The notes beneath the pieces are model-generated. The model had not been told where the DNA came from. It worked only from the letters and a program-made list of their open reading frames with translations, and did no database searches. A program made the translations under genes and the position numbers. Positions 2,204 to 53,858 of a DNA stretch of 57,490 nt are shown here, piece after piece (position 1 is the stretch's first letter; each line of letters starts with the position of its first letter). The stretch lies in contig WGMR01000004.1 of the NCBI GenBank assembly GCA_016124955.1, positions 1 through 57,490 on the forward strand. Direction: 5' to 3'. Source of the DNA: Alphaproteobacteria bacterium (GTDB lineage: Bacteria > Pseudomonadota > Alphaproteobacteria > UBA9219 > RFNS01).

Positions 2204-3877
2204 TCAGAAGGTAGTAACGACACATCTGCCCGCGCCGCCAGCACCGCCGGCGCTACGCCCGCCGCCGCCGCCGCCGCCCGGCTGCGTACCAGCGGTTCCG
2301 GTTCCGGTGCTACCCGCGCCGCCAGCGCCACCATATTTCGATGACCCGCCTGACGTAGTGTTTGCTGAGCCGCCGCCGCCGCCGCCAAAAGCCGAGCTGC
2401 CGCCAGCATAGGCGTTATTGTTATTACATCTCCTGCAGCCGCCGCCGCCGCCGCCAAAACTGCCGCCTTTTGGCAAAGCATAGGCATAACAGTTATTGCA
2501 CCCGCAATCATAATAGACATATGTACCGCCATCCCCTGCCGTTCCATCGCCCGCTGTGGCGGGTACGCTTGATTGACCGCTGCCAGTAGTGTTCGTCCCG
2601 GCTGCCAGCATACCGCCGCCGCCGCCGCCATTGCCTTGCTCACTTTCGCCGCCGCCGCCGCCATAGGCCGAAACCCAGCTGCCAAAGGTGGTTGTGCCAC
2701 CTACGCCGCCGTTTGCGTTATTAGTTGTTTGGCCGGTGCCACCGGCGCCGATCGTCACGGTTTCGGTGGAACCGAGCGAACTTGTGGCAATCCAGCGATA
2801 GGAATAGCCGCCGCCGCCGCCGCCGCCGGCATAGCCGCTTGATTGCCGCGCGCCGCCGCCGCCACCGCCAATGCATTCAATAAGCGTCATGCTGCCGCTA
2901 CCGGGCTTGGTCCATGTGCCGCTTGAGGTAAAGGTTTGTGTATCGACACTGCTGCTGCTTGAAGGCGTTGCCCAGGTGCCGTCGCCACGCAGGTATGTGC
3001 TGCTGCTGGCCGTGCCGCTGCCAAGCCGCGCCGTGCCCACCGTGCCGGTGGAAAGATTACTGGCGCTCAGCGCCGTCAGCGATGCGCCGGAACCGCTGAA
3101 GGTCGCCGCCGCCACGTTGCCCGAAAAACTTGCGGCCGCGCCCGAAAGCGTGCCCGTCATGGTGGGCGAAGCCGAAAGCACCACATTGCCTGTGCCCGTC
3201 ACCGTATATTCGCCCACAACGCCGCTGCTGTTGTACAAAACCCTGGTGTTGGTGCCGCTGGTGATCGTGGTCGATCCCACCGTGATGCCGCCGCTGCTCG
3301 GCGTCGCCCAGCTGCCGTCGCCGCGCAAATAGGTGCTGCTGTCGGCCGTGCCGCTGCCCATGCGCGCCGTGCCCACCGTGCCGGAAGCGATGTTATCGGC
3401 GTTCAGCGCGGTCAGCGATGCGCCCGAACCGGCGAACGAGGTGCCGGTTATGTTGCCGCTGTCGTCGATTGTCACGCCGCTGTTTTGCAGCAATTTGCCG
3501 GTGGTGCCGTCAAAGCGCACGACCGCGTTATCGGTCGCGCTCGAAGGGCCCGTCACGTCGCCGCTGCCCGAAGGCGCATCGGTGGTGCAGTTGATAACAT
3601 CGCCGTCGGTCGTGCACCATTTGCCGCTGGTCAGCGTGCCGATACTGCTGCTGCCCCCGCCGCCCGAGCCACCCATGTTTACCCATGACGCGCCGTTACA
3701 ATACTGCATCAGATCATAGCTGGTGTTATAGACCTGCTGCCCGGCGACGCCCGTGGGGCTGGTGCAATCAGCCAGCGCGGGCACGGAAAACAGCGCAAGC
3801 GCCGCCAAAAGCGGCAGCGCCGCAAAAAAGCGGGCGGTGATGTTACGGCAGGTTTCCGGTTTCATCGCATCCCTCAT
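2204..3877 (-). CDS. Secreted fibre protein A with glycine-rich tip (no S74 chaperone)
   Basis: This is the last of five coupled fibre genes; its ATG at 3877 overlaps the preceding stop in an ATGA. The 557-residue product has a Sec signal ending ALA/DC near residue 36, then the shared head motif (DC-x4-GVAG-x-Q-x-YNTSY, MQYCNG-x-x-W-x-NMG). The shaft has two copies of the 46-residue repeat (GSGASLTALN... LRGDG-x-WATP). Unlike its neighbours it ends in about 240 glycine-rich residues introduced by FTSSGTWTKPGSG and closing with CVVTTF. That is the layout of glycine-rich receptor-binding caps in phage tail fibres. A Cys/Asn-rich insert (DCGCNNC, CRRCNNNN) sits inside the cap. The tip probably binds a surface ligand (inference). 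Confidence 0.8.
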   Translation of the reverse strand: MRDAMKPETCRNITARFFAALPLLAALALFSVPALADCTSPTGVAGQQVYNTSYDLMQYCNGASWVNMGGSGGGGSSSIGTLTSGKWCTTDGDVINCTTDAPSGSGDVTGPSSATDNAVVRFDGTTGKLLQNSGVTIDDSGNITGTSFAGSGASLTALNADNIASGTVGTARMGSGTADSSTYLRGDGSWATPSSGGITVGSTTITSGTNTRVLYNSSGVVGEYTVTGTGNVVLSASPTMTGTLSGAAASFSGNVAAATFSGSGASLTALSASNLSTGTVGTARLGSGTASSSTYLRGDGTWATPSSSSSVDTQTFTSSGTWTKPGSGSMTLIECIGGGGGGARQSSGYAGGGGGGGYSYRWIATSSLGSTETVTIGAGGTGQTTNNANGGVGGTTTFGSWVSAYGGGGGESEQGNGGGGGGMLAAGTNTTGSGQSSVPATAGDGTAGDGGTYVYYDCGCNNCYAYALPKGGSFGGGGGGCRRCNNNNAYAGGSSAFGGGGGGSANTTSGGSSKYGGAGGAGSTGTGTAGTQPGGGGGGGRSAGGAGGAGRCVVTTF

Positions 3878-5571
3878 GGGTTAGACGTCCTGATAAGCTT
3901 GGCTTTGGCGCCCGCGTGCGCGCCGCGCAGCGAAGCGTTTTCAGCCCGCAGATTTTCGTTGGCGGCTTCAAGCCCGGCAAGCCGTTCTTCCAGCGCCGCG
4001 AAGCGCGCGTCATACCCGCTCATCCGTGCGGCCATCTGCTTGACGGCCTCGATCACGGGCAGCACCAGCTTGTCGTACTGCACCGCCATGAAGCCCTTTT
4101 CGTCGCGCGTGATCGCTTCAGGCAACACCTTTTCCACTTCCTGCGCGATCACGCCGAAATCATCCGAATTATCCTTGTTCCATTTGAAGTGCACCGCGCG
4201 CAGGCCTTTAACGGTCTCGATCGGGTCGCGCTCGAACCCGGTCACATCATGCTTCAAGCGCGCGTCCGACGAATGGTAATAGCCGGTGGTCAGCAAATTG
4301 CCCGCCGTGGCCAGCGAATAGCTGCTGTTCGGCGTGGTGCCGATGCCGACATAGGCGCCCGTGTTGCTTATGCTCATGAGCAGCGTCGGGGAGGTGCCTG
4401 AGGGTGCGGACGAATCCCCAAGGAACCTTATGCCGTCATAACCGATTTCGATGCCGGCGGCCGAAGTGTATGAGTTAACCCCGAGCGAGGTCCAGCCGCT
4501 GCTGGCGTTGCGATAGCCGTTCCACATCAACGAAAGGCGATAGGCGCCGTTGCTGCCAATATAGCCATAAGGTGTGCCGAACCATGGGCCGGAGGTGGTG
4601 CCCCAGAAATCGCTGAAAGCAGCCTGCCCACTGACATAAACAGATTTCGAAAATGTCGCGGTGTTTGATACACCGATCGTACCGACGCCGGTCACATTGC
4701 TGCTGTCGTCCACGGTGATACCGCTACCCTGCAACAACTTGCCGGTGGTGCTGTCGAAGCGCACGAGCGTGTTATCGGTGCTGCTGGCCGGGCCTACCAC
4801 GTCGCCGGAACCCGAAGGCGTGGTCCAAATTCCATCGCCGCGCAAATATGTGCTGCTGCTTGCCGTACCGCTGCCAAGCCGTGCCGTGCCCACCGTGCCC
4901 GATGCCAGGTTGCTGGCGTTCAGCGCGGTCAGCGAAGCGCCGGAACCTGCGAAGGATGTTGCCGTCACATTGCCGCTGTCATCGATCGTCACTGTGCTGT
5001 TCTGTGTGATGTCACCGCCGGTGCCGTCCCAGCGCACGACCGCGTTATCGGTGCTGCTGCCGGGTCCGTCCATGCTGCCCGTGGGCGTCGCCCAGCTGCC
5101 ATCGCCGCGCAGGAATGTCGTGCCGTCTGCCGTACCGCTGCCAAGCCGCGCCGTGCCCACCGTGCCGGATGAAAGATTGCTGGCGTTCAGCGCGGTCAGC
5201 GATGCGCCGGAACCGGCGAATGTGGTGGCGTTTAGGGTCGCCACGCCGCTGATATTGTTGCTGTCATCGATCGTGACCGAGCTGCTTTGAATAGTCTTGC
5301 CGGTGGTGCCATCGAAGCGCGCAATCGCGTTATCGGTGCTGCTGCCGGGGCCGGTTACGTCGCCGTTGCCCGCGCTGCCCGCACCCGCGCCCATATTCAC
5401 CCAGTTGGTGCCGTTGCAGTACTGCATCAGGTTATAGGAAGTGTTATAGAACTGCTCGCCCGCAACGCCGGCTGGCGTGTCGCAATCGGCCATCGCCGCG
5501 CCGGGCATCATCACGGCTGCAAGCGCCAGCGCGCCGCAAAGCCTGATTGCTGCTATGTTCATCGCTTTCAT
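3874..5571 (-). CDS. Secreted fibre protein B with C-terminal Peptidase_S74 intramolecular chaperone
   Basis: The 565-residue product has a Sec signal ending AMA/DC at about residue 28, the shared Cys-containing head, and a shaft with two long repeats plus shorter 'VTIDDS(G/N)N(V/I)' turns. A unique tip of about 120 residues is rich in Trp, Tyr and Gly (around 4320-4680). An endosialidase-type chaperone follows, beginning HSSDARLKHDV. Ser435 and Lys440 have the Ser-(x4)-Lys spacing of the self-cleaving S74 dyad; cleavage there would release a 131-residue chaperone after trimer folding. The end is a leucine-heptad coiled coil. Start and stop overlap neighbours by 4 nt on both sides. The domain calls are family knowledge; trimerisation is inferred. 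Confidence 0.85.
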   Translation of the reverse strand: MKAMNIAAIRLCGALALAAVMMPGAAMADCDTPAGVAGEQFYNTSYNLMQYCNGTNWVNMGAGAGSAGNGDVTGPGSSTDNAIARFDGTTGKTIQSSSVTIDDSNNISGVATLNATTFAGSGASLTALNASNLSSGTVGTARLGSGTADGTTFLRGDGSWATPTGSMDGPGSSTDNAVVRWDGTGGDITQNSTVTIDDSGNVTATSFAGSGASLTALNASNLASGTVGTARLGSGTASSSTYLRGDGIWTTPSGSGDVVGPASSTDNTLVRFDSTTGKLLQGSGITVDDSSNVTGVGTIGVSNTATFSKSVYVSGQAAFSDFWGTTSGPWFGTPYGYIGSNGAYRLSLMWNGYRNASSGWTSLGVNSYTSAAGIEIGYDGIRFLGDSSAPSGTSPTLLMSISNTGAYVGIGTTPNSSYSLATAGNLLTTGYYHSSDARLKHDVTGFERDPIETVKGLRAVHFKWNKDNSDDFGVIAQEVEKVLPEAITRDEKGFMAVQYDKLVLPVIEAVKQMAARMSGYDARFAALEERLAGLEAANENLRAENASLRGAHAGAKAKLIRTSNP

Positions 5572-6749
5572 GGCGCCGCCGCCTTCCTGAATCCGGCCTT
5601 ATGCAAACCGCCTGCCGCCTGCGCGGCGCGAAGTTTTTCGTTGGCGGCTTCGAGCGCCGCGAGGCGCTCTTCCATCACCGCCAGCTTCGCGGCTTGCTTG
5701 CGCATAATCTCGGTCATCGCCGCGAGCTGTTCGTCATACCCGCTCATCCGTGCGGCCATCTGCTTGACGGCCTCGATCACAGGCAGCACCAGCTTGTCGT
5801 ACTGCACCGCCATGAAGCCCTTTTCGTCGCGCGTGATCGCTTCGGGCAACACCTTTTCCACTTCCTGCGCGATCACGCCGAAATCCTGCTTGCCGCCATC
5901 GTTCCATTTGAAATGCACCGCGCGCAGGCCTTTCACGGTCTCGATCGGGTCGCGCTCGAACCCGGTCACATCATGCTTCAACCGCGCGTCCGACGAATGG
6001 TAATAGCCGGTGGAAAGAATGTTGCCGTTGGTATAGATCTTATAGCTTGCGCTCGGTGTCACGCCCACACCAAGGCCATTGGTGTTCATTGTCATGATGC
6101 TGGCGTTATCGATACGGAAATAAATTGCGTTGCCGGAAGATGCGTTCAAATATGTAATGCCCGCGGAAGACTGCAGCAGCGCATAATTGCCGCTTGCCGA
6201 TTGATCAAGCGCTGCATGGCCGAACACGGCATATGTTGTATTGGAGGGCCATCCACCTGCCAACACGCGGCCAATACGCGCGACGCTTGTCGCTGTCGGT
6301 ATATCAAGCGCGTAGCTTGCGGTTGTCGTCCCAATACCCACATTGCCGCTGTCGTCGATGATCACGGCGCTGTCCTGCACCGTCGTGCCCGTCGTGCCGT
6401 CCCAGCGCGCAATAGCGTTATCGGTGCTGCTGCCGGGGCCGACCATGGTGCCGGTGGGCTCGTCTTCCGTACAGGTCACAACCGTGCCGTCGCTGGTACA
6501 CCATTTACCGCTGGCCAAAGCGCCGAAGCCGCTGACGCCGCCCGTGCCCATATTGATCCAGTTGCTGCCGTTGCAGTACTGCATGATGTTATAGCTGGTG
6601 TTATAGAACTGCTGCCCGGCAACGCCCGTGGGCGTGTCGCAATCGGCTCGCGCGGCGGCGGGCGCAAACACAAGCGCGCAGGCCAGCAGCGCCGCAAGGC
6701 TGCGGGGAAGGGCGTTATGGCCGGTTGCCGGTTTCATCGCGTCCCTCAT
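5568..6749 (-). CDS. Secreted fibre protein C, short, with Peptidase_S74 chaperone
   Basis: This is the smallest chaperone-bearing fibre at 393 residues. It has a Sec signal ending ARA/DC near residue 35, the shared head, a very short shaft without the 46-residue repeat, and a tip of about 100 residues containing YAVFGHAALDQS and MTMNTNGLGVG. It then has the S74 chaperone with Ser253 and Lys258 as the predicted dyad and a coiled-coil tail. The tip is closely similar to that of the giant fibre E. The first residues MRDAMKP match those of fibre A, and the corresponding DNA at the two upstream gene ends is also alike, so A and C look like products of a cassette duplication. ATGA overlaps link it to genes on both sides. 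Confidence 0.85.
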   Translation of the reverse strand: MRDAMKPATGHNALPRSLAALLACALVFAPAAARADCDTPTGVAGQQFYNTSYNIMQYCNGSNWINMGTGGVSGFGALASGKWCTSDGTVVTCTEDEPTGTMVGPGSSTDNAIARWDGTTGTTVQDSAVIIDDSGNVGIGTTTASYALDIPTATSVARIGRVLAGGWPSNTTYAVFGHAALDQSASGNYALLQSSAGITYLNASSGNAIYFRIDNASIMTMNTNGLGVGVTPSASYKIYTNGNILSTGYYHSSDARLKHDVTGFERDPIETVKGLRAVHFKWNDGGKQDFGVIAQEVEKVLPEAITRDEKGFMAVQYDKLVLPVIEAVKQMAARMSGYDEQLAAMTEIMRKQAAKLAVMEERLAALEAANEKLRAAQAAGGLHKAGFRKAAAP

Positions 6750-9700
6750 GGGTTGGCCGTCCTGTCGAATCTAGCTTTTACCGCGCGCCCGTCAAGCGCG
6801 CCGCGTTTCATGGCGTCGCGCAGCGTCGCGTTCTCGGCGCGCAGATTTTCGTTGGCCGCTTCCAGCGCGGCAAGGCGCTGCGCCATAGCCGCCATCTGTG
6901 CGTCATGCGCGTCCACGCGGCCGGTCAGCGCCGTAAGGTTTCCGGCCATCTGCTTTACAGCCTCGATCACGGGCAATACAAGCTTGTCGTACTGCACCGC
7001 CATGAAGCCCTTTTCGTCCCGCGTAATGGCTTCGGGCAGAACCTTTTCCACTTCCTGCGCGATCACGCCGAAATCCTCGCTATTATCCTTGTTCCATTTG
7101 AAATGCACGGCGCGCAGGCCCTTCACGGTTTCGATAGCGTCGCGCCCGAACCCGGTCACATCATGCTTAAGCCGCGCGTCCGATGAATGGTAGTAGCCGG
7201 TCGAGAGGATGTTGCCCGCCGTAGCAAGCGAATAGCTGGTGTTCGGCGCGTTGCCTATGCCCACAAAGGCGCCGCTTTGGCTAACCGTCATGCGCGCCGT
7301 GCCTGCGGTAACAAGTGCAACGGCATCGCCGCCGGCGGTACCGAACAAAACGGTGCCGCTGTTATAAGTCCAGTAACTTATCGTCGCGGGCGTGCCCGCG
7401 CGCGAAACCGTAATCGTACTGTCGGTAGCATCATAGATATGCAGCTTGTCGGCGGGGCCGGTCGTGCCGATGCCGATATTGCCCGAAGCATCGATAGTCA
7501 TGGCCGTCACGGCGGCATAATTGCTTCTGATCTTCAAGCCGCCCGCGCCACCTTCAAGATAGGTGATGTCGTCGGAATACAGCTGCAGCAACGCGCGCGT
7601 GGTGCCGCCCGAATCCTTGGAATCGAGCCGTTTTGCGTTCGCAAGCAGGATGCCGTTGTTGGCGGTTACGGTTCCGGAAAAAGTGCCCGCCGCGGCCGTT
7701 ATCGTACCCGTCAATGTCGGCGAAGCCGACATCACCACGTTGCCCGTGCCGGTGATCGCATATTCGCCCACCACGCCGCTGTTGTCATACAGCACATAGC
7801 CGTTGTTGCCGCCGGTGATGGTCGAGCTGCCGACGGCCATGCCGGCGCTGACCGAAGGCGTGGTCCAGGTGCCGTCGCCGCGCAGATAGGTCGAAGAACT
7901 TGCGGTGCCGCTGCCAAGGCGGGCGGTGCCGACCGTGCCCGATGCCAGGTTGCTGGCGTTCAGCGCGGTCAGCGAAGCGCCCGAGCCGGCGAACGAGGTC
8001 GCGGTCACGTTGCCGCTATCGTCAATCGTCGCGCCGCTGTTTTGCGTCAAGCCGCCGGTGGTACCGTCCCAGCGCACGATCGCGTTATCGGTGCTGCTGC
8101 CCGGGCCCACCATGCTGCCCACCGGCGTCGCCCATGTGCCGTCGCCGCGCAAAAACGTGCTGCTGTCGGCGGTGCCCGAAGACGCAAGCCGCGCCACCGG
8201 CACCGTGCCCGATGTCAGCTGCGTTGCGTTCAGCGCCGTCAGCGAGGTACCGGTGCCCGAAAAGCTTGCGCCGGTCACGGCGCCGGTCACGCCCAGCGTG
8301 CCCGCCACCACCGTGTTGCCGCTTGCCGCCGCCACCGTGAATTTGTTGGTGTTGATCGCGAAATTGCCGGAAGCGGCAAGCGTGCCGATGCCGGTTACGT
8401 TATCGCTGTCGTCGATGATCACGCCGCTGTCCTGCGTCACGCTGTCGGTGCCGTCGAAGCGCGCCACGGCGTTATCGGTCGTGCTGCCCGCGCCGCCGCC
8501 GCCGCTGCCGCCCGCGCCGGGGCCGCCGGTGGCGGAGGGAAACACAACGCCGTCGGCGCCGAATTTTGCCGCCATCACACCGCCCGCGGCAATCGCAACC
8601 GTATCGGCAGCCGGGGCGTAAAGACCGGTATTGGCATCGCCCGTCACGGCCCACCCGGGCGCGCTGACGGTGCCGGCTGCGAAAGTGCTGCTGCCTACTT
8701 CCGTCCAGCCGCCGGCATAGACGTTCATCTTGCCGGTACTGGTGTTATAGATCATCAGGCCCGTCGCCGGGCTTGAAATTGCGTCGCGCGCGGTGCCGTC
8801 CATGCGCGGCGGCAGGAAGCCCTTGCTGGTGCTGACCATTTCAAACTGCGCGCTCGCATCCACGGTTTTGGTGCCCACGCCCACGCTGCCCGTGCTATCC
8901 ATTCTGATGCCGCCGATGCTGGAATTCCACGGCGCGATAACAAGCCCGCCGGTTCCCTGCGAACCGGCATTGTAGGTGATGATCGCGTCGCCCGTGGCGG
9001 TAATAGGGTTATGCGAGCCACTGGACATGTTGGCCTGTATGGCAAGGCTGGTGGTTGATGTATCTGACCGCACCATGATACCGGCGGCTGTGGTGCCGGA
9101 TTTATAGACATCAAGCAAATTGCTTGTAGCCGTGGTGCCGATCCCGACATTGCCTGTCGTGTTCAACGTGGCGATGCCGGTTACGGCGTTGGCATCGCTA
9201 ATGATCACGCCGCTATTCTGCGCCAGCTTGCCCGTGGTGCCGTCAAAACGTATCACAGCGTTATCGGTGCTGCTGGCGGGGCCGTTGAAATCGCCGATCG
9301 AGCCGCTGCCGCCCTGCACCGTGGCCCAGGTGTTATCGCCGCGCAGGAATGTCGTTGTATCCGCCGTGCCGCTACCGAGACGTGCCGTGCCCACCGTACC
9401 GGTTGAGATATTGCTGGCGTTCAGCGCGCTCAGGCCGGCGCCCGAACCGTTGAACACGCCTGCGGCGGTAATAAGCGCCAGCACCACATCATCGCTGTCG
9501 CGAAACTCGGCGAGGTTGCCGCTTTGCGAGATCGCGCCCTTGACGATCAGGCCCACATCGGTCGCCGCAAGCGCGGTTACGGTCACGATATCGGTATCGG
9601 TCGCATATGTCAGGCCCGAAGCGCCCGCAAGATCGCCCGCGCCGTCATTATACTGCACCTGTCCGCCGCTGCCGGCGGCGTTCGCCGGCGGATCTTCCTG

Positions 9701-9952
9701 ACAGTTGATCAGAGTGCCGTCGGACGTACACCATTTGCCGCTTTCAAGCGTGCCGATCGCGCTGTCGGAACCGCCCGAACCCATATTGATCCAGACGCTG
9801 CCGTTACAGTACTGCATCAAATCATAACTGGTATTATAAAACTGGTCGCCCGCAACGCCGGTGGGGGTCGTACAATCGGCCCGCGCCGCGCCGGGCAGCA
9901 GCAGCGCCGCAAACGCGGCTACGAGCGATACCTTATATATATACCGCATCAT
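6746..9952 (-). CDS. Secreted fibre protein D, long shaft, with Peptidase_S74 chaperone
   Basis: This 1068-residue fibre has a Sec signal ending ARA/DC at about residue 25 and the shared Cys-containing head. Its long shaft has three copies of the 46-residue repeat, a GFLPPRM...RDAISSPATGL segment typical of tail-fibre shafts (near 8745-8840) and further TDNA-x-x-RFDGT turns. The tip near 7200-7650 includes two 'GNIGIGTT'-type beta-turn units. The S74 chaperone has Ser924 and Lys929 as its dyad and leaves 145 residues for release. A heptad coiled coil ends the protein. It overlaps the genes before and after by 4 nt. It is presumably secreted by Sec and held at the surface by its head domain, although no lipobox or LPXTG-like anchor is visible. 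Confidence 0.85.
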   Translation of the reverse strand: MMRYIYKVSLVAAFAALLLPGAARADCTTPTGVAGDQFYNTSYDLMQYCNGSVWINMGSGGSDSAIGTLESGKWCTSDGTLINCQEDPPANAAGSGGQVQYNDGAGDLAGASGLTYATDTDIVTVTALAATDVGLIVKGAISQSGNLAEFRDSDDVVLALITAAGVFNGSGAGLSALNASNISTGTVGTARLGSGTADTTTFLRGDNTWATVQGGSGSIGDFNGPASSTDNAVIRFDGTTGKLAQNSGVIISDANAVTGIATLNTTGNVGIGTTATSNLLDVYKSGTTAAGIMVRSDTSTTSLAIQANMSSGSHNPITATGDAIITYNAGSQGTGGLVIAPWNSSIGGIRMDSTGSVGVGTKTVDASAQFEMVSTSKGFLPPRMDGTARDAISSPATGLMIYNTSTGKMNVYAGGWTEVGSSTFAAGTVSAPGWAVTGDANTGLYAPAADTVAIAAGGVMAAKFGADGVVFPSATGGPGAGGSGGGGAGSTTDNAVARFDGTDSVTQDSGVIIDDSDNVTGIGTLAASGNFAINTNKFTVAAASGNTVVAGTLGVTGAVTGASFSGTGTSLTALNATQLTSGTVPVARLASSGTADSSTFLRGDGTWATPVGSMVGPGSSTDNAIVRWDGTTGGLTQNSGATIDDSGNVTATSFAGSGASLTALNASNLASGTVGTARLGSGTASSSTYLRGDGTWTTPSVSAGMAVGSSTITGGNNGYVLYDNSGVVGEYAITGTGNVVMSASPTLTGTITAAAGTFSGTVTANNGILLANAKRLDSKDSGGTTRALLQLYSDDITYLEGGAGGLKIRSNYAAVTAMTIDASGNIGIGTTGPADKLHIYDATDSTITVSRAGTPATISYWTYNSGTVLFGTAGGDAVALVTAGTARMTVSQSGAFVGIGNAPNTSYSLATAGNILSTGYYHSSDARLKHDVTGFGRDAIETVKGLRAVHFKWNKDNSEDFGVIAQEVEKVLPEAITRDEKGFMAVQYDKLVLPVIEAVKQMAGNLTALTGRVDAHDAQMAAMAQRLAALEAANENLRAENATLRDAMKRGALDGRAVKARFDRTANP

Positions 9953-12900
9953 GGTGCCGCCGCCTTGAGAGCCGCGAATTCGCCGCGAAGCGATTCCACA
10001 GAATCGCGCAGCGCCTTCAGCTCGTCCTTCAGCATTTTGTTTTCTTCCCGCAGCGCCTTGATCTCGTCGTCATGGCCATCAACGCGCTTGGCCAGCGCCA
10101 TCAGGTCGGCGGCCATCTGCTTCACCTCGATCACCAGCTTTTTCACGGCTTCCAGCACCGGCAGCACGAGCTTGTCGTACTGCACCGCCAAAAAGCCCTT
10201 CTCGTCGCGCGTGATCGCTTCGGGCAGAACCTTCTCAACTTCCTGCGCGATCACGCCGAAATCCTGTTCGTTATCCTTGTTCCATTTGAAATGCACGGCG
10301 CGGATGCCTTCAATGGTGGCATACGGGTCGCGTTCAAATTGCACCACATCGTGCTTCAACCGCGCGTCCGATGAATGGTAATAGCCAGCGGAAAGGATAT
10401 TGCCGTTGGTATAAATTTTGTAACTCGCACTTGGTGCCACACCAACACCAAGACCGTTGGTATTCATGGTCATAACGGTGCTGTTGGCGACACGGAAATA
10501 GATGGATCCGTCGGTTCCGGTATTCAGGTATGTTCCCGTGGCTCCGCTGTTTTGTAGCAATGCGTAATTTGTATTGACCGACTGATCCATCGCCGCATGA
10601 CCGAATACCGCATATGCCGTGTTGGCAGGCCACGCACCAACTATGGCAGCGCCAAGGCGGGCGTTATTGGTAACCGTGGGTATATCGAGCGAATAGTTCG
10701 CGCTCGTCGTGCCGATGCCCACATTGCCGCTGGCGGTCAGGTTTCCTGTGATGGTCGTCGCGCCCGCCGCCAGTGTGCCGATGCCGCTTACGTTATTGCT
10801 GTCGTCGATGATCACGGCGCTGTTCTGCAGCGTGGCGCCGCCGGTGCCGTCAAAGCGCGCCACGGCGTTGTCGGTGCTGCTGCCCGCGCCGCCCACGTCG
10901 CCGCCGTCGCCCACGCCGGCGCCGCCCGCCTGGCCGGGAAAGATCACGCTGCCGCTGGCGATGTTGATTTTGCCGCTGCCCTTCGGCGTCAGGTTGATAT
11001 TGACGTTGGTGTCGCTGCCCGCCGCGCCGATGGTCACGCCGCTGCCGGTCGCCGCCGGGGTCAGCGCCACGTAATTCACGCCGCTGCTGGCGGTGTTAAA
11101 GCGCGCAACCTGAACCCCGCCCGCCGTCACCGAAAGCGTATCGGCCGCCGGGGCGTAAAGGCCGGTATTGGTATCCGTGCTTACCGCAAGGCCGGGTGCG
11201 CCCACCGTGCCGGCATCGAACTGCCCCGCCGTGCCGCCGCCCGCTTCGGGCTCGTCGCCCGTCACGCCCGGAAACACCATGCCGCCTGCGGTGAAGCTGG
11301 CCGCCATGCTGCCGCCCGCGGCGATCGCGAGCGTATCGGTCGCCGGGCGGTAAATGCCGGTGTTTTCGTCGTTCGCGAACGGCCAGCCGGGCGCATCCAC
11401 CGTGCCATCCGCCATGTCGGTAGCGCCGCCGCCCCCGCCGCCGACCATGGCGCCGGAGAAGTTTGCGGTGTATAATGTGCCACCCGTAATTGTTGTGCTT
11501 CCGCTATAAATATAAGCTTCCACATAATCGCTGCTGCCGTTCATATCGAGTATGACGGATGCGTTCGGAATATAGTTCGTCGGCGTGCCCGCCTGTCCTT
11601 CATAGGAGATCAGAGCTCCATTTTTATATATGCCAATATAGCAGATAGTCCCGCCGTTGCCGCAATATGCGCTAGCTGCAAAAATATACTTCCCCGCCTC
11701 CGTTGGCGTGAAGCGATCAGAAGCAAAGTTGTCATTGGTGTCAAAAATTTCCGTTTGCCACGTCAATTTGGTCCATGTGCTGGTTGCGACTGTCTGGTCA
11801 ATTGTTTTGCGTACAAAGAAGCTCGGCCCCGTGCTGCTGCCCCCGCCGCCGCCCGCGCCGGTGCCCACCGCGCTCCAGACGCTGCCGGTGTAGTAATTCA
11901 GCGCGTTGGTGGATGTATTGTAAACCACAAGGCCGGTTGCCGGGCTGCTGATCGCGTCGCGCGCCGTGCTGTCCATGCGCGGCGGCAGGAAGCCCTTGGT
12001 CGTGCTGACCATATCAAGCACGGCGCTTGTTGCCACGCTTGTGGTGCCGATGCCAACGCCCGTGGCGCCGGTGACCGTGCCCGCCGTAACGGTATCGCCG
12101 GTACTGGCATCGATCGTGAATTTATCGGTGTTGACCGCGACATTGCCGGTCACGTCAAGCGTATCGGAAAGCGTGGTCGCGCCGGTTGCATCCAGCGTGC
12201 CCGCCACGACCGTATCGCCGCTTGAAGCCGCCACCGTGAATTTGCTGGTGTTGATCGCAAAATTACCGCTGGCCGAAAGCACGCCGATGCCGCTTACGTT
12301 GTTGCTGTCGTCCACCACAACGCCGCTGCCCTGCACCAGCTTGCCGGTGGTGCCATCGAAACGCGCGAGCGTGTTGTCGGTTGCGCTGGCGGGGCCGTTC
12401 AGATCGCCGATCGTGCCGACGCCGCCCTGCACCGTGGCCCATGTATTGTCGCCGCGCAGAAAACTTGTACTGTCCGCCGTGCCGGATCCGAGCCGCGCGG
12501 TCGGCACCGTGCCGGAACCGAGCGCGGAGGCGTTCAAAGCCGTCAGCGAAGCGCCGGAACCCGCGAAACTCGCGCCCGTGACCGCGCCGGTCACATCCAG
12601 CGTGCCTGCCGCCAGCGTGTTGCCCGTGGCGGCATCGACCGTGAATTTGTCGGTATTCACCGTAAGGTTGCCGCTAAGCCCGAGCGCGGCAAGCGCGGAT
12701 GTGCCGGTGACGCCGAGCGTGCCGCCCACGACCGTATTGCCGCTGCTGCCCTCGACCGTAAACTTATCGCTGTTGATCGCGAAATCGCCCGCGGCCGCGA
12801 GCGTGCCGTCGGTGCTGATATTGCCCGCCGCCGTCACGCGCGCCAGAACGCCGGCGCTATCGTTGCGCCATTCCGTCAGGTTGCCGGATTGCGATGTCGC

Positions 12901-15819
12901 GCCCGCCACTACAAACGGAATGTCGGTCGCGGTTTGCGATGTCACGGTCACCACATCCCCCGAAGATGCGTATGTAAGCCCGAGCGCGCCGGCGAAACCG
13001 CCGCTGCCATTATACTGCACCTGCCCGCTGGCGCCGGCGGCATCGCCCGTGGAGCCGTTGGAGCCGAGCCCGCCGCTCGCGCCGCCGAAATGCAGGATGC
13101 GGTCGGAAAGGTTGATTTTGCCGGTGCCCTTGGTGGAAAGGGTAAGATCGATGTTGGTATCGCTACCGCCCGCAGAAATGGTCGGGCCCGCGCCCGTCGC
13201 GCCGGGGGTGATGCTGACGTAATTGACGCCGTTCGTGCCGGTGTTCCAGCGCACCACTTCGGTGCCGCCGGCGGTGACCGAAAGCGTATCGGCATTGGCC
13301 TGATAGAAGCCGGTGTTGGTATCGTTGGTCACGAACAGGCCGGGTTCGGTCACCGTGCCCGGGTCAAAGTTGGTGGCGCGGCCGCTGCCCACCGCTTCCC
13401 AGCTATCGCCGTCGTAATAGTTCAGCCCGTCTGTCGTTGTGTTGTAGATAAGCAGGCCGGTCGCGGGGCTTGATATCGCGTCGCGTTCCGTTTCCTGCAT
13501 GCGCGGCGGCAGAAAGCCCTTGGTCGTGCTCGAGAGCGCGAGCAGGGCGGTGCCGGTCACGCTGGTGGCACCGAGCGCCATGCTGCCCGCCGGTCCGACC
13601 ACGCCCAGAACGTTCTGGTCGCTGTCCTGCCATTCCTGCAAATTGACGCTCTGCGATGCGGCGCCGCGCACGATCAGCGGCTTCGATGTCGCGTTCGCCG
13701 CCACCGCCGTGACCATGCCGGTCAGGTTGCCGGTAACATTGCCCGCAAGATTGCCGTAGAAACCGCCGGTCGAGGCGGAAACCGCGCCCGTGAAGGAGGC
13801 ATTGCCGGTATCGCGCGCAATCGAGAAGGGCGTGCCGATCGCGGCGCCGCTGTCGTCGTAATTTTTCAAAACAAAATTGCTGCCGGCGTTGCTGCCGCCT
13901 TCGGCGGTGCTTTCGCCGCCCCACGCCCAGCGCAGCGTCGTGCCGGTCGCGATCTGGTAGAAACGGTCGCTCGCGGCCGTGCCTTCCAGCCTGATGTTGC
14001 CGGCTTTCACATGCAGCCGCTCGGCGGGGTCAGAGGTGTTGATGCCGACATAGCCGTTTTCGTCGATCGTCATAGCGGCGGTGCCGTCGGTCGAAAGCAC
14101 GATCGTGCCGCCGCTGCCGCCGCCGTCGGTAATGTCTATTCCGGTGTCGTCTTGGTTGAACGAGGCGGTTTCCACATCCTGCGCGGCGGTTACGCGGCCG
14201 GTGCTATCGACCGTGCCCCAGTTATAGGCGCCCGCGGTCACGCCGCTGGCCGGCAGCCGGTTGGCATCGAGCGTGCCCGTCGTCAGATTGCCCGCATCGT
14301 TGGCACCAAGGTTGGTGCGCGCGCCCGCCGCCGTGCTGGCGCCGGTGCCGCCATTGGCGATGGCGACCTGCCCGGCCAGAATGCCGGACGCGTTTGTAAG
14401 GTAGGTCGCGGTCGTCGCCGTAGTGGCGGTGCCGGAAATGCCGACATCAAGCGTGCCCCCGCCCAGACCCGTGAGCCCGAGCGCAGACCATGCCGCGGCG
14501 GCATCCGCCGCCTGAAACACCGCATCACCGGTCGCGCCGACGCCAAGCGTGACGCGCGCGGCGGCGGCGGTTGACGATGTGAACAGCGAATCGCCCGTGC
14601 TGCCCGCGCCGATGGTCGAACGCGCGGTCGAAGCGTCATCGGCCGTGAAAAGCGTGGTGCCGACCGTGCCCGCGCCAAGGGCGGTGCGGCCCGCAGCTTC
14701 GTCGGCGGCAATGAACAGCGCATCGCCCACCGTGCTGGCGCCAAGGGCGGTACGGCCCGCTTCTTCGTCGGCGGCCACAAACACCGCGTCGCCCACCGTT
14801 GTCGAGCCAAGCGAACTGCGCGCCGCGCCCGCGCTGGCTGCGGTAAAGAGCGATTCGCCGATACTGGTCGCGCCCAGAAGCGTTGTACGCACGGTCGCGG
14901 CGGTGGAACTGTCATAGGAACCGGCGGTGAAAAGATAGTCGCCCATCGTGGTAGCGCCGAGGTTCACGCGCGCGCCGCCCGCCGTGGCCGCGCCGGTGCC
15001 GCCCGAAGCCACCGGCAACGGATTTGAAATGCTGATCGAATCGGCCGTGATCGCGCCGCTGAGGCTGAGCGCGGAGCCCATGATGGTGCCGTCCGGCTGC
15101 ACGCGCACCGCGTTGGCGGCAACGCCGTAGCGAACTTCCTGCTGCCCGCCGCCGATGTCGGCGACCTGCCAGACGTTGGCACGGTTGATCGCTTCGCCCA
15201 CATTGACGCGTTCGATTTTATCGTCGTTCTGGGCGACGGTGTCGCCGCAATCCGTTTCAAGCGTGCCGTTGGGGCCGGCGCTGATCAGCAGCATCGCCGG
15301 GTCGCTGCCGGGCGTGACCGCGTTTTCCCAGCGACAGTAAATATAGAAACGGTTCCAGGGGTCGAGCTGCTTGACCCCGGCGGTGGCCATGTAAACACCC
15401 GCGCTTTCGGGGCTGCCGTCATCGTCGGCGGCGGCATAGCCGGTCGGAAGTTTGGACGCGTCCTCGCTGGCGATGCTTGCAAAGGGATAGGTCGCCGGCG
15501 GCTCGAGTGTGGTCTGGTCCACACTGAGCGCCGATGTCGAGGAAAGCGTGCGCGCCGCGGCGGTCAGATCGTTGCGGGCGGTATTATCGCGCGTGACTTC
15601 GACGTTGCTGCGCAGAATTTGCGAATAGCCGCTGAACAAAATGCCTGCGCCGACGCCCGCAATCGCCAGCACATAAAGGATCGGGCCGATCATGAAGCCC
15701 GCTTCGCCCCGCTTGCGCGCATGCGCAAACCCGAAACGCGCGCGCATGAAAGCCGAGCCGAAAAGCCCGCGCCTCACCGTGCCCGCGTCATTGGTCGTGG
15801 GGGTTTTGCCGAAATTCAT
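9949..15819 (-). CDS. Giant pilin-like/tail-fibre fusion protein E with C1q-like insert and Peptidase_S74 chaperone
   Basis: The first gene of the operon encodes 1956 residues and starts at an ATG preceded by AGGGG. It has no Sec signal. A 41-residue basic leader ends RKRGEAG, followed by a hydrophobic segment (42-64) beginning FMIGPILYV, as in type IV prepilins but with Pro instead of Glu at +5. Residues 65-230 contain DPWNRFYIYC and ISAGPNGT, which resemble the GspG pseudopilin globular region. Seven 22-residue repeats follow (286-448), then a long tail-fibre-type shaft with two GFLPPRM segments and one 46-residue repeat. A C1q/TNF-like domain lies at about 1332-1458, then a tip like that of fibre C, an S74 chaperone with dyad Ser1817/Lys1822 and a coiled coil. 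It could be a pilus-tip or membrane-anchored adhesin. Processing by a prepilin peptidase is inferred. Confidence 0.8.
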   Translation of the reverse strand: MNFGKTPTTNDAGTVRRGLFGSAFMRARFGFAHARKRGEAGFMIGPILYVLAIAGVGAGILFSGYSQILRSNVEVTRDNTARNDLTAAARTLSSTSALSVDQTTLEPPATYPFASIASEDASKLPTGYAAADDDGSPESAGVYMATAGVKQLDPWNRFYIYCRWENAVTPGSDPAMLLISAGPNGTLETDCGDTVAQNDDKIERVNVGEAINRANVWQVADIGGGQQEVRYGVAANAVRVQPDGTIMGSALSLSGAITADSISISNPLPVASGGTGAATAGGARVNLGATTMGDYLFTAGSYDSSTAATVRTTLLGATSIGESLFTAASAGAARSSLGSTTVGDAVFVAADEEAGRTALGASTVGDALFIAADEAAGRTALGAGTVGTTLFTADDASTARSTIGAGSTGDSLFTSSTAAAARVTLGVGATGDAVFQAADAAAAWSALGLTGLGGGTLDVGISGTATTATTATYLTNASGILAGQVAIANGGTGASTAAGARTNLGANDAGNLTTGTLDANRLPASGVTAGAYNWGTVDSTGRVTAAQDVETASFNQDDTGIDITDGGGSGGTIVLSTDGTAAMTIDENGYVGINTSDPAERLHVKAGNIRLEGTAASDRFYQIATGTTLRWAWGGESTAEGGSNAGSNFVLKNYDDSGAAIGTPFSIARDTGNASFTGAVSASTGGFYGNLAGNVTGNLTGMVTAVAANATSKPLIVRGAASQSVNLQEWQDSDQNVLGVVGPAGSMALGATSVTGTALLALSSTTKGFLPPRMQETERDAISSPATGLLIYNTTTDGLNYYDGDSWEAVGSGRATNFDPGTVTEPGLFVTNDTNTGFYQANADTLSVTAGGTEVVRWNTGTNGVNYVSITPGATGAGPTISAGGSDTNIDLTLSTKGTGKINLSDRILHFGGASGGLGSNGSTGDAAGASGQVQYNGSGGFAGALGLTYASSGDVVTVTSQTATDIPFVVAGATSQSGNLTEWRNDSAGVLARVTAAGNISTDGTLAAAGDFAINSDKFTVEGSSGNTVVGGTLGVTGTSALAALGLSGNLTVNTDKFTVDAATGNTLAAGTLDVTGAVTGASFAGSGASLTALNASALGSGTVPTARLGSGTADSTSFLRGDNTWATVQGGVGTIGDLNGPASATDNTLARFDGTTGKLVQGSGVVVDDSNNVSGIGVLSASGNFAINTSKFTVAASSGDTVVAGTLDATGATTLSDTLDVTGNVAVNTDKFTIDASTGDTVTAGTVTGATGVGIGTTSVATSAVLDMVSTTKGFLPPRMDSTARDAISSPATGLVVYNTSTNALNYYTGSVWSAVGTGAGGGGGSSTGPSFFVRKTIDQTVATSTWTKLTWQTEIFDTNDNFASDRFTPTEAGKYIFAASAYCGNGGTICYIGIYKNGALISYEGQAGTPTNYIPNASVILDMNGSSDYVEAYIYSGSTTITGGTLYTANFSGAMVGGGGGGATDMADGTVDAPGWPFANDENTGIYRPATDTLAIAAGGSMAASFTAGGMVFPGVTGDEPEAGGGTAGQFDAGTVGAPGLAVSTDTNTGLYAPAADTLSVTAGGVQVARFNTASSGVNYVALTPAATGSGVTIGAAGSDTNVNINLTPKGSGKINIASGSVIFPGQAGGAGVGDGGDVGGAGSSTDNAVARFDGTGGATLQNSAVIIDDSNNVSGIGTLAAGATTITGNLTASGNVGIGTTSANYSLDIPTVTNNARLGAAIVGAWPANTAYAVFGHAAMDQSVNTNYALLQNSGATGTYLNTGTDGSIYFRVANSTVMTMNTNGLGVGVAPSASYKIYTNGNILSAGYYHSSDARLKHDVVQFERDPYATIEGIRAVHFKWNKDNEQDFGVIAQEVEKVLPEAITRDEKGFLAVQYDKLVLPVLEAVKKLVIEVKQMAADLMALAKRVDGHDDEIKALREENKMLKDELKALRDSVESLRGEFAALKAAAP
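14476..14964 (-). repeat. Tandem 22-codon repeats in the N-terminal shaft of fibre E
   Basis: Residues 286-448 of fibre E contain about seven tandem units of 22 residues with the pattern TxGDxLFxAxDxxxARxxLG (66 nt per unit). Two adjacent units differ at only a few positions. Similar alanine-rich LG repeats occur in phage tail-fibre shafts. Confidence 0.85.
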
Positions 15820-16145: not shown

Positions 16146-16949
16146 TCAGGTCAGCAGAACGGCCAAAAGCAGCCCCCCGATCGCGATCCGGTACCAGGCG
16201 AAGGGCGCGAAGCCATAACGGCCGACGAAGGCAATAAACCCCTTCGCAATCGGCCATGCGGCGAAGAAGGCGGCAATAAACCCGATCACAAGCAAGGTCG
16301 TGTCGCCTTCCGCCATCGCGTCGCGGTTTTTGTAAAAATCATAGACGGTGGCGCCCATCATGGTCGGGATAGCAAGAAAAAACGAGAATTCCGCCGCAAC
16401 CCGCCGTTCGACCCCGAGCAGAAGCGCCCCCATGATGGTGGCGCCGGAACGCGAAACCCCGGGCACCATCGCAAGGCATTGCGCACAGCCGATCAGGAAT
16501 GCGGTCTTCAACGGCATGCGGTCGAACGCCTGTGTTTTCACCCTGTACATGTTGCGTTCGATCACCAGAATGGCGACCCCGCCGAGCAACAGCGCCCACG
16601 CCACGACCAGCGGATTGAACAATGCGGCCTTGATGAAATCGTGGACCAGCGCGCCAACCACGGCGGCGGGCAGGAATCCAAGCAAAACGGCCCAGACAAA
16701 ATGCCGCGAAGCGGCATCCCTGTGCAGCGTCAGGGTCACATGCCAAAGGCGGGGGAAAAAAGCGATCACAACGGCCAAAATGGCGCCAAGCTGGATCACC
16801 ACTTCGAACATATACCCGGAAGGGCCCTGAAAGCCGATACCCTCGCCCAGCAATATCAGGTGCCCGGTTGAGGATATAGGCAGGAATTCCGTAAAACCTT
16901 CGACCACCCCCATCAGCGCGGCCTTAAGAATGGTGATCAGATCAGGCAT
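16146..16949 (-). CDS. uppP: Undecaprenyl-diphosphatase
   Basis: This integral membrane enzyme (BacA/UppP family) dephosphorylates undecaprenyl diphosphate to recycle the lipid carrier for peptidoglycan and polysaccharide synthesis. The 267-residue length is normal for the family. Both signature motifs are visible: EGFTEFLPISSTGHL near residues 17-31, with the catalytic glutamate and serine-rich loop, and PGVSRSGATI in the second half. About seven to eight hydrophobic segments follow the family plan. It stands alone, with 118 nt to the DUF2336 gene upstream on the same strand, and it ends about 330 nt before the fibre operon. Confidence 0.95.
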   Translation of the reverse strand: MPDLITILKAALMGVVEGFTEFLPISSTGHLILLGEGIGFQGPSGYMFEVVIQLGAILAVVIAFFPRLWHVTLTLHRDAASRHFVWAVLLGFLPAAVVGALVHDFIKAALFNPLVVAWALLLGGVAILVIERNMYRVKTQAFDRMPLKTAFLIGCAQCLAMVPGVSRSGATIMGALLLGVERRVAAEFSFFLAIPTMMGATVYDFYKNRDAMAEGDTTLLVIGFIAAFFAAWPIAKGFIAFVGRYGFAPFAWYRIAIGGLLLAVLLT

Positions 16950-17067: not shown

Positions 17068-18183
17068 TCAGGCGGCGGCGGGCGAGGTGATAATATCGCC
17101 CAGCTTATCGAGCAGGTAATCGAGGTCTTCCTGCCCCATATCCTCGAACTGGGTCAGGATACGTTCCAGCACGCGGCGGCGGTAACGCTCCATATCCTGC
17201 GCGCCGCCGTCCAGCTCGGTTTCGTGCACAACATCAATGGCCACGCGCACGGCGGGCAAAAGCCGCGCCGGCAGACCCGATTTGTCGTAAAGCGATTTCA
17301 TGCCCAGACGCCCGGCATCGTGGATCAGAATGCGCGCATTCACAACGGGCACGTTTGCCAGAACAGCAATCGCGTTTTCAAAAAACGTTACATCGCCCAT
17401 GCACAGCGCGCGGATCACAAGCGAAGGCGTCAGCCGCTTGTTGCGATAAAGCTGCAGCACAAGCTTCTCCACGTCCATCTCGGCCGCCGTCGCGGCTAGA
17501 TTGACGATCGCGCGTTCGCGGCTTTGCAAAATCATGTCGGCCGCAAGCGTGGGCGACATTTCATGGTGGGTCACGAGATAATCTTTCAGCTTTTCCGAAA
17601 CATGGGTCACGAGCCGCTCGGCCACCGCGACCGGAAGCTTGTCGCGCTTCACCAGCGGTTCCTGCACCATCTCGCTTTCCGGAAAACGGTCCACGACCTT
17701 ACCGAGGCTCTTTTCCGCGATCTTGGCGCCCTTGTTGCCGACCAGCGTCGCGACCGTCTTTTCGCTGCCCTTATCGACAATCGCATCAGCGACCGCTTCG
17801 GAAACGTCCGCGCGGCGCGCGATCGCGGCCTGTTTGTTGTCGGAACCGGCGCCGACAATCTCGATCAGGTCGGTATCGGTCAAAACCCTGGAATCTTCCA
17901 GGATCGGCAACGCAACCTGTTCGATATCTTTCGCGAGCTGCACCGCCACATCGTGCGGGATGCGCTGCGCGCGGCGCAAACTTACGGCAAGGCATTCGCG
18001 CACGCTGTCGGTTACATCCTTGGCCAGCGCGCGCACGATGCCGTGCGCCAGTTCCAGTTCGTGGGCGGTAAGCTGCGGGCTGTCGATTTCAAGCCCGACC
18101 TTGGCTGCGATCTCGGACCGCGCAACGGGCGAAGGGTCTGCAAGAAGTTTGGCGACGTCTGCCTGAGTAAGCTGCGATGCCAT
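17068..18183 (-). CDS. DUF2336 family protein
   Basis: I take the ATG at 18183, after a GGGGGAAAG ribosome site, which gives 371 residues, the usual DUF2336 size. The longer open frame to 18495 adds 104 residues of unrelated composition. The protein is soluble and almost wholly alpha-helical, with repeated short helices like HEAT-type arrays: VARSEIAAKVG, AVADAIVDKG, LVTHVSEKLKDYLV and ERYRRRVLERILTQFED. DUF2336 proteins are widespread in alphaproteobacteria and their role is not established. The neighbours, uppP and divergent apt, do not suggest one. The family call is firm, but function is unknown. Confidence 0.85.
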   Translation of the reverse strand: MASQLTQADVAKLLADPSPVARSEIAAKVGLEIDSPQLTAHELELAHGIVRALAKDVTDSVRECLAVSLRRAQRIPHDVAVQLAKDIEQVALPILEDSRVLTDTDLIEIVGAGSDNKQAAIARRADVSEAVADAIVDKGSEKTVATLVGNKGAKIAEKSLGKVVDRFPESEMVQEPLVKRDKLPVAVAERLVTHVSEKLKDYLVTHHEMSPTLAADMILQSRERAIVNLAATAAEMDVEKLVLQLYRNKRLTPSLVIRALCMGDVTFFENAIAVLANVPVVNARILIHDAGRLGMKSLYDKSGLPARLLPAVRVAIDVVHETELDGGAQDMERYRRRVLERILTQFEDMGQEDLDYLLDKLGDIITSPAAA

Positions 18184-18584
18184 GCGTTGGTACTTTCCCC
18201 CGTATGCGTGCCGCGCGTTAAACATAAATCCGCTCAGGCATCGCCTGAAGCTTTCGGCCCAAGTCCCGATATACAACGCGTTTTCGTCTGGTTCCGCAAG
18301 GCTACTATGCGCGATAAGATTTTCGCAATTGTTAAGATTTCCGGCCTGTCCGGTATATCGATTGGTTTTTATGAAATATATAACTGCGCATTTCGCTAAA
18401 ATTTTACCGGTGCTGCACTGCATCGGCTTCCCATACGCGCATGTTCGCGCGCGCCGCCACGCCTTCATTTTCCGGCGCACATATCTGGCGCACATATAAC
18501 GCGCATTTCCTGTTTGCAGGCCGCGGCAAACACTCTACTGTGTGGCGGCCTTTCCGGCGCGTTTCACCAAGATGGACCAGCCCC
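18184..18584. other. Divergent intergenic region between DUF2336 gene and apt
   Basis: This 401-nt region separates two divergent genes and should carry both promoters. It contains an AT-rich block at 18310-18410. A short direct repeat, GGCGCACATAT, occurs at about 18474-18484 and 18488-18498, roughly 90 nt before apt. Open frames across it have no ribosome site or family resemblance, and I see no RNA gene. Confidence 0.4.
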
Positions 18585-52645: not shown

Positions 52646-53107
52646 CTAAAGCGCCGCTTTCACAAGCGTATAAAGCGCCGCGCCGACCGCCAGCGTAAAG
52701 CCGATGCATAAAAAGGGCGCAAAATGCACCTGCGTGCGCGGCTTTTTGGCCAGCCGCCACGCCCCCATCCACAAAAGCGCGAACACGGCACCCAAGGGCC
52801 AGGCGACAAGCGCGGCAGCCGGGCCGAAACCGAGCGCCGCGAGCATGGTCCATTTCACATCGCCCATGCCGAAGGCATCCGCCTTTTTCCATTTGAACCA
52901 CAGCCAGTTGACAAGCCAAAGCCCGCCGCCGATCGCCAGGGCCGCAAGCCCGTTGGTCCACAATACCACCCCTCTGGCTTCCCCCAGAAGGTAACCGAGG
53001 GTCATGCCCGCGCCGAACAGCAGGATTTTATCCGGCACCCTGCCGGTACGCGCGTCCGTTATGGCGGCGGCGACAAGGGAAATGTAAACGATCAGCAGCG
53101 CAATCAT
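52646..53107 (-). CDS. Small A24 prepilin peptidase (TadV/CpaA-like)
   Basis: This aspartic protease of the inner membrane cleaves prepilin leaders. The 153-residue product has only the catalytic transmembrane part, without the methyltransferase domain of PilD. Asp18 (in AITDARTGRVP) and Asp83 (in GMGDVK) are the two catalytic aspartates at the expected places. It follows the pilin-like gene by 30 nt on the same strand, so the two probably form an operon. It is the only prepilin peptidase in the window and a candidate processor of the giant fibre E. Confidence 0.9.
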   Translation of the reverse strand: MIALLIVYISLVAAAITDARTGRVPDKILLFGAGMTLGYLLGEARGVVLWTNGLAALAIGGGLWLVNWLWFKWKKADAFGMGDVKWTMLAALGFGPAAALVAWPLGAVFALLWMGAWRLAKKPRTQVHFAPFLCIGFTLAVGAALYTLVKAAL

Positions 53108-53137: not shown

Positions 53138-53716
53138 TTAATCCGCGACGCAATCGCTGTCCGCGCTTCCGCTCGGCTGCGTGATCCAGATCACCAGTGA
53201 TTGGTTTTCACTCTCGCTGTCGTAATCGGCTTCCTGCGAGGTGAATTTGATGCGCGCCTGCGCAACGCCCTGCTGCACGGCGACCGAAGCGGCGATCGCG
53301 GTCGTGCTCGGCTGGATCTTGATGCAGCGCCCGCCGCCGTCACCCGAATGATCGTAATAGGTCCAGTCGGTGAAGCCTCGCGGCGGCTGCGGCAATTGCG
53401 CCGGGCGCGCGCCGTTCCATAAATTTTCCTGCCCCGTAGGGTCGTTCGGGCATTCGACATCCGCCACCGCGGTGCCCGAAGCGTCCGACGTCGGCCAGCT
53501 GCCGCGGATCGTGTTGCATTCGAACATCTTGCTGCGGATCAGGTTCGCTTGCGTATGCAAAAGCGGGCTGATGCTGTCGGCCCGCGTTGCCGTGCCCATG
53601 TTGCTGGACCCGGCCGCCATCACGGCCGCAAGGATGCCAAGCAGCGCGACCACAAAAAGAATGGGGCCGATGGCGATCCCGGCTTCGGGGTGGAGGCGTT
53701 GGCTGGTGCCTTGCAT
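53138..53716 (-). CDS. Type IV pilin-like protein with unusual leader
   Basis: From the ATG at 53716 (GAGGAACAC upstream) the product has 192 residues. A 13-residue leader ends HPEAG, followed by the hydrophobic helix IAIGPILFVVALLGILAAVM. The usual Glu at +5 is Pro. The mature domain has four Cys in FECNTIRG, DVECPND, GRCIKI and SDCVAD contexts and a WTYYDHSGDGGGR loop. The leader and helix match those of fibre E (EAG-x-x-IGPIL-x-V-x-A). The prepilin peptidase is next downstream. No pilus assembly ATPase or secretin is in the window. Confidence 0.72.
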   Translation of the reverse strand: MQGTSQRLHPEAGIAIGPILFVVALLGILAAVMAAGSSNMGTATRADSISPLLHTQANLIRSKMFECNTIRGSWPTSDASGTAVADVECPNDPTGQENLWNGARPAQLPQPPRGFTDWTYYDHSGDGGGRCIKIQPSTTAIAASVAVQQGVAQARIKFTSQEADYDSESENQSLVIWITQPSGSADSDCVAD

Positions 53717-53858
53717 GAGGTGTTCCTCGCTAATTGACGGGTGCGGCGCTTTCCTTATACGCCAAATCCGGGCGGGCGCGGAACCCCGTTTCTTGCCAAT
53801 TGCGCGCGCCTGCGATACCACATTGCCTAACCTTTCTTCATTATTCCGGAGCAACATC

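Follow-up and report, generated by a model that had tools for sequence, protein, structure and literature searches.

The window analysed here, a stretch of 57,490 nucleotides, begins at base 1 of a 129,704-base contig and holds, at positions 2204-15819, five consecutive open reading frames on the minus strand. The first-pass annotation had described this run as a five-gene operon, and the reading frames bear it out, with adjacent frames sharing 4 bp (ATGA). In order of transcription the genes encode proteins that we call F1 (1956 aa), F2 (1068 aa), F3 (393 aa), F4 (565 aa) and F5 (557 aa). The operon and its upstream neighbours are arranged as follows:

9949-15819, minus strand: F1, first gene of the operon, a putative modular pilin fibre (open reading frame, S74 domain, prepilin-like N-terminus)
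6746-9952, minus strand: F2, predicted secreted S74 fibre of 1068 aa (open reading frame, S74 domain)
5568-6749, minus strand: F3, predicted secreted S74 fibre of 393 aa (N-terminal module at 6540-6722, S74 domain at 5835-5993)
3874-5571, minus strand: F4, predicted secreted S74 fibre of 565 aa (N-terminal module at 5383-5571, S74 domain at 4111-4269)
2204-3877, minus strand: F5, predicted secreted fibre of 557 aa with a Gly-rich C-terminal tip (PF21722; N-terminal module at 3662-3865)
16146-16949, minus strand: BacA/UppP (PF02673), a conserved upstream neighbour outside the apparatus
17068-18495, minus strand: DUF2336 protein (PF10098), a conserved upstream neighbour

The composition of the operon matches that of the host: its GC content is 0.636, against 0.610 in its surroundings, and its GC3 is 0.72-0.78, with values of 0.74 and 0.78 in two neighbour genes. 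Scans for promoters and terminators gave results near chance level. Because the window begins at the first base of the contig, the downstream side is visible for 2.2 kb only in the host genome; within this view, and upstream where the BacA/UppP and DUF2336 genes lie, no phage gene is near and the flanks are housekeeping genes, as had been claimed.

Four of the five proteins had been predicted to carry an S74 chaperone, and a Pfam search agrees: Peptidase_S74 (PF13884) scores 49-52 bits in F1-F4, against a curated cut-off of 22. The same search finds no S74 domain in F5, the C-terminus of which is Gly_rich_2 (PF21722; 38.2 bits, cut-off 24.3), the glycine-rich domain for which a search had been proposed. 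The sequence SDARLK is kept in all four S74 domains and fits the SDxxxK autoproteolysis motif, which is also the self-cleavage motif used for the MAT fibre proteins of Bdellovibrio (PMC10769870). The four domains group together in one clade (100/99 support), and their DNA is 79-92% identical; they have therefore been duplicated or homogenised within the host lineage. PHROG matches of the fibres are to tail-fibre families, and stem from the S74 and shaft modules. The parts of F1 and F2 to which we refer below are:

15145-15819, minus strand: F1 leader and pilin module (basic leader ending in EAG, then FMIGPILYVLAIAGVGAGILF, a long helix and a small beta domain, DPW..YIYCRW)
13771-14106, minus strand: F1 residues 572-683, a module similar to the MAT fibre tip (phmmer against the PDB)
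11434-11832, minus strand: predicted C1q/TNF-like domain inside the F1 fibre (structure model)
10213-10371, minus strand: Peptidase_S74 of F1, an intramolecular chaperone with SDARLK (Pfam match and motif)
9770-9949, minus strand: F2 signal peptide and conserved mature N-terminal module CxxPxGVxGxxxYNTSYxxMQYCNG (alignment A4, order-wide search)
7025-7183, minus strand: Peptidase_S74 of F2 (Pfam match)

The first-pass annotation overlooked the pilin-like head of F1, in view of which the fibre would be borne on a pilus and would not stand free on the surface. As in class III prepilin leaders, a basic stretch (ARKRGEAG/FMIGPILYVL, with the slash marking the putative cleavage site) places a Gly immediately before a hydrophobic segment. 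In an alignment of 16 F1 homologues, G41 and F42 are invariant and P46 is present in at least 90% of the rows. The residue at mature position 5 of F1 is thus Pro and not the Glu that is typical of pilins. GspK also lacks Glu5, so Pro5 lowers, but does not exclude, membership of F1 among the pilins. No Pfam or NCBIfam pilin model (N_methyl / GFxxxE motif) matches F1, and one F1 homologue has a weak T2SSG match at the corresponding position (E 0.15). Since Glu5 is absent and the pilin profiles are silent, we call the N-terminal part of F1 a divergent pilin module, with moderate confidence.

Structure prediction points in the same direction. The AlphaFold2 model of the module (pLDDT 72) has one helix of 52 residues (44-95) followed by a beta domain. 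A Foldseek search of this model against the PDB gave no significant match (best E 0.83; XcpGHIJK at E 2.1), and phmmer with the N-terminal 225 aa of F1 against the PDB returned nothing useful. When the Foldseek candidates were re-aligned with VIA, the top ten rows were all type II secretion pseudopilins or type IV pilins (Z 5.7-3.4), led by GspG (3g20, Z 5.7), the XcpGHIJK model (9a1f, Z 5.5) and the type IVb pilus of ETEC (9iuf, Z 5.3), and the first unrelated row followed at Z 2.9. As pilins are ranked first by the VIA re-alignment only, the Foldseek result being non-significant, we predict a pilin fold (long helix and beta domain) for this module with moderate confidence.

The remainder of F1 resembles known fibres. 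The first-pass annotation had guessed at a C1q domain and at a likeness to the fibre adhesins of Bdellovibrio. The first guess is right for residues 1330-1462 of F1: a single-sequence model of this segment (pLDDT 70) matches C1q domains at a Foldseek E of 2e-6, and its re-alignments give Z 14.0 with the phi812 central spike, Z 13.7 with C1ql1 and Z 13.1 with BclA. The second stands for the fibre modules, in that residues 572-683 match the tip of the Bdellovibrio MAT fibre Bd3182 (8ojn) at E 4.7e-6, and Bd2133 (8ond) at E 1.9e-4, by phmmer against the PDB, but it fails for the pilin base, which is absent from MAT fibres. The MAT fibres Bd3182 and Bd2133 are, like the proteins studied here, phage-like trimeric fibres of a bacterium, with S74 and non-S74 members and TNF-like domains (PMC10769870). 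In MAT proteins, however, a signal peptide is followed by a conserved beta-rich N-terminal domain of about 130 aa, whereas F1 lacks this start and begins with the pilin module. MAT fibres have no pilin base, and for their anchoring a connection with type IV pili has been put forward as a suggestion (PMC10769870). F1 joins fibre and pilin module in one polypeptide that is conserved across the order, and the link between fibre and pilus is therefore directly testable.

The companion proteins F2-F5 have signal peptides and a common short mature N-terminal module (CxxPxG...YCNG). In a search of the genomes of the order, this motif also recurs within fibre shafts, and its role may therefore be to start folding and not to direct docking. 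In four genomes (G000, G004, G008 and G027), F1 is directly followed by fibres that have a signal peptide and an F2-F5-type start. A scan of viral contigs with F3 found no relative, and phage records have only S74 and shaft parts in common with F3, at less than 60% identity. In one genome (G006), more than ten fibres with the F2-F5-type N-terminus are dispersed over separate contigs, compared with four in the host.

The F1 pilin module is found in 28 of the 33 genomes of the host's order (in G011 through nothing more than a short, weak match), where it heads frames that are as short as about 300 aa, if truncated at a contig end, and as long as 9801 aa. Across a sample of the class (385 genomes), the module is strong only in the host's order, and elsewhere yields three weak partial matches (E 1e-5 to 1e-6). 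Gene order in relatives, a comparison that the first-pass annotation had proposed, is conserved as well. BacA/UppP likewise adjoins F1 in G002, G003, G004, G006, G008 and G010; in the two closest families BacA/UppP precedes F1, with DUF2336 before BacA/UppP where the contig reaches that far. An AMP-binding ligase lies downstream of the F1 locus in G002, G008 and G010, without phage genes. It had been reasoned that the same fibres inside prophages of relatives would speak against a bacterial apparatus; searches of 50,697 phage records, 72,556 plasmids and IMG/VR did not find the F1 N-terminal module, and the relatives' flanks are housekeeping genes. The conservation, the synteny and the absence from phage sets thus support the earlier suggestion of a bacterial apparatus over a phage remnant, with adhesion as its presumed function. 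We conclude that the operon is most likely a chromosomal adhesin apparatus and not a prophage, and a variant of modular pilins and of MAT-like fibres.

If F1 is a pilin, a machine should assemble it, and the host genome has two type IV filament clusters, on contigs 7 and 8. The contig-8 cluster (L096:6896-15674) comprises a secretin, an ASH-domain protein, GspE, GspF, two membrane proteins and a pilin starting EAG/IAIGPILFVV. It is found order-wide, and in its pilins mature position 5 is invariably Pro (IAIGPILF) and not Glu; such Pro5 pilins are recognised by no curated family. The sole other matches to the F1 N-terminus in the host genome are two Pro5 pilins, the one on contig 8 and one within the window, where it adjoins a prepilin peptidase:

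53138-53974, minus strand: second Pro5-type pilin (EAG/IAIGPILFVVALLGILAA), probable partner system (search with the F1 N-terminus; alignment A3, E 2e-48, with this pilin included among the alignment's own rows)
52646-53107, minus strand: prepilin peptidase of the A24 family, adjoining this pilin (PF01478, 33.8 bits, cut-off 26.5)

A profile comparison of the F1 N-terminus with the Pro5 pilins gives an hhalign probability of 89% (E 2.2e-6, 44% identity over 36 columns). The contig-8 pilin is present in 32 of the 33 genomes of the order and the secretin in 31, compared with 28 for F1; one genome that is 99% complete (G009) lacks both F1 and the contig-8-type secretin, and its pilin match is weak and contains a stop. 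Both F1 and the contig-8 cluster are near-universal in the order, so that their co-occurrence is weakly informative and gives no statistical proof. From this co-occurrence and the resemblance of the N-termini, we infer that F1 most likely belongs to the contig-8 machine, from which its gene is encoded apart.

Taken together, these observations make it probable that the operon specifies an adhesin apparatus that is chromosomal, inherited vertically and mounted on a type IV filament, and in which F1 is a modular minor pilin with an S74 fibre. A prepilin peptidase would cut the F1 leader after Gly41, and the hydrophobic helix would then enter the filament. The C-terminal part of about 1700 residues would form a trimeric phage-like fibre with its C1q-like domain, probably at the pilus tip, where the S74 domain would fold the fibre and then cut itself off. 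The most likely assembly machine would be the order-wide contig-8 cluster, joined by the two genes at 52.6-54.0 kb of the window, for the Pro5 pilin and the prepilin peptidase. F2-F5 may trimerise in the periplasm (F2-F4 with the help of S74), exit by way of the secretin, and then attach either to F1, in the manner of TcpF on TcpB, or to the cell surface. Between them, the differing tips could recognise several ligands, for which glycans of other bacteria are plausible candidates.

Several known systems resemble parts of this scheme. In modular type IV pilins such as PilB and PilC of Streptococcus sanguinis, a pilin module is likewise fused to an adhesive module, and a survey lists the combination of pilin and S74 among the uncharacterised architectures of such pilins (Raynaud et al. 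2021, PMC8179133). However, that survey requires the IPR012902 motif, and the Pfam and NCBIfam counterparts of this motif miss F1, with its Pro5. The F1 fibre, at about 1700 residues (and a 9801-aa protein in a relative), is also far longer than the 860 residues of the most extreme multi-domain case quoted in that survey. For the companion proteins, the closest analogues that we propose are CofB/CofJ and TcpB/TcpF of type IVb pili, where a minor pilin, trimeric and located at the tip, captures a secreted partner by the partner's N-terminus (PMC9565799). There, as with F1 and F2-F5, a tip minor pilin and its secreted partner or partners would come from one operon; the proposed likeness is one of organisation, and in our case there are several S74 or Gly-rich partners and the operon lies apart from the machine. 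PilV of R64 and TP114 is also a minor pilin, and its exchangeable adhesive C-terminus selects recipient cells (PMC9045228). Finally, the Kil tips of the Myxococcus Tad pilus are made of minor pilins and give a type IV filament adaptable ends for bacterial predation, but they consist of heterotrimeric KilLMN, without a reported S74 fibre (PMC12075869); a predatory role in our case is conjectural.

A different reading of the same proteins is that they are free adhesins like the MAT fibres, with an uncleaved F1 helix in the inner membrane, F2-F5 exported by another route, and the pilin likeness a relic. This reading draws on the resemblance to modules of the MAT fibres (the Bd3182 match at E 4.7e-6), for the display of which no pilin base is needed (PMC10769870), on the replacement of Glu5 by Pro, which could hinder entry into a filament, and on the 9801-aa F1 of a relative, which is large for a filament subunit. 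We nevertheless consider it unlikely. A simple anchor would need neither a conserved Gly-Phe junction nor a pilin module, both of which are found in the 16 homologues; an anchor in the inner membrane leaves the passage of the fibre across the outer membrane unexplained; and the Pro5 motif is itself invariant in pilins that adjoin a secretin and GspE/F.

It is also rather improbable that the fibre is carried by the other filament of the host, or is common to both machines. The contig-7 cluster encodes a type IVb pilus of the R64/TCP-like kind, with a PilN-family secretin, PilO, GspE- and GspF-like proteins and several pilins, and one of these is a 464-aa minor pilin that begins GFTLVELAIV and ends in an S74 domain with SDRNLK (contig 7, 251 kb; L039:6967-8361). 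But its own pilins start with the ordinary GFxxxE, whereas F1 resembles the Pro5 pilins, and it already has a PilV-like S74 pilin, which sits in an R64-like pil cluster and in which the S74 fibre replaces the PilV tip. Pilin-S74 proteins akin to this one recur in many genomes of the order.

That the operon was left behind or carried as cargo by a phage-derived element (prophage, tailocin or gene transfer agent), with the element's other genes elsewhere, is very improbable, and this origin was rejected: S74 and shaft modules are common to phage tail fibres, and terminase and portal genes (62-64 kb), followed by capsid-like and DUF2460 genes, do occur on contig 9, but that cluster is without S74 and looks RcGTA-type, and the operon has a fixed position, conservation across the order, a host-like composition, housekeeping flanks, an AMP-binding ligase downstream in relatives, and an F1 N-terminal module that was not found in the phage, plasmid and IMG/VR sets. 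The contig-9 cluster as a whole spans about 62-78 kb (L176:3800-19901), with terminase, portal, protease/capsid-like and DUF2460 genes in an RcGTA-like arrangement.

Should the pilus-borne reading be right, modular pilins would be widened to include very long S74-folded fibres, and a filament class with Pro5 in place of Glu5 would be indicated. More tentatively, we suggest that the Pro5 filaments form an alphaproteobacterial class of their own in which giant phage-derived S74 fibres serve as trimeric pilus tips, with changeable companion S74 fibres that pass through the secretin; this would amount to a phage-like receptor-binding head on a bacterial pilus, in lineages partly filed as the epibiotic predator Micavibrio. 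The relatives are labelled Alphaproteobacteria, Rhodospirillaceae or Micavibrio in public records, and NCBI places Micavibrio under Bdellovibrionota. Because some relatives are filed as Micavibrio, and given the precedent of the Kil tips in Myxococcus, a predatory use of the apparatus is possible. For metagenome mining, a further consequence is that S74 and tail-fibre matches need not signal a prophage.

In G002 (contig 1, 607-637 kb; L041/L042) the F1 locus is a single frame of 9801 aa, with the pilin module at its start and an S74 domain and a transmembrane-like segment at its end. Two overlapping frames stand in place of one F1 frame in G004 and G010 (L047:1445-8007 and L102:1229-10781), owing to either a frameshift or an assembly error in repeats.
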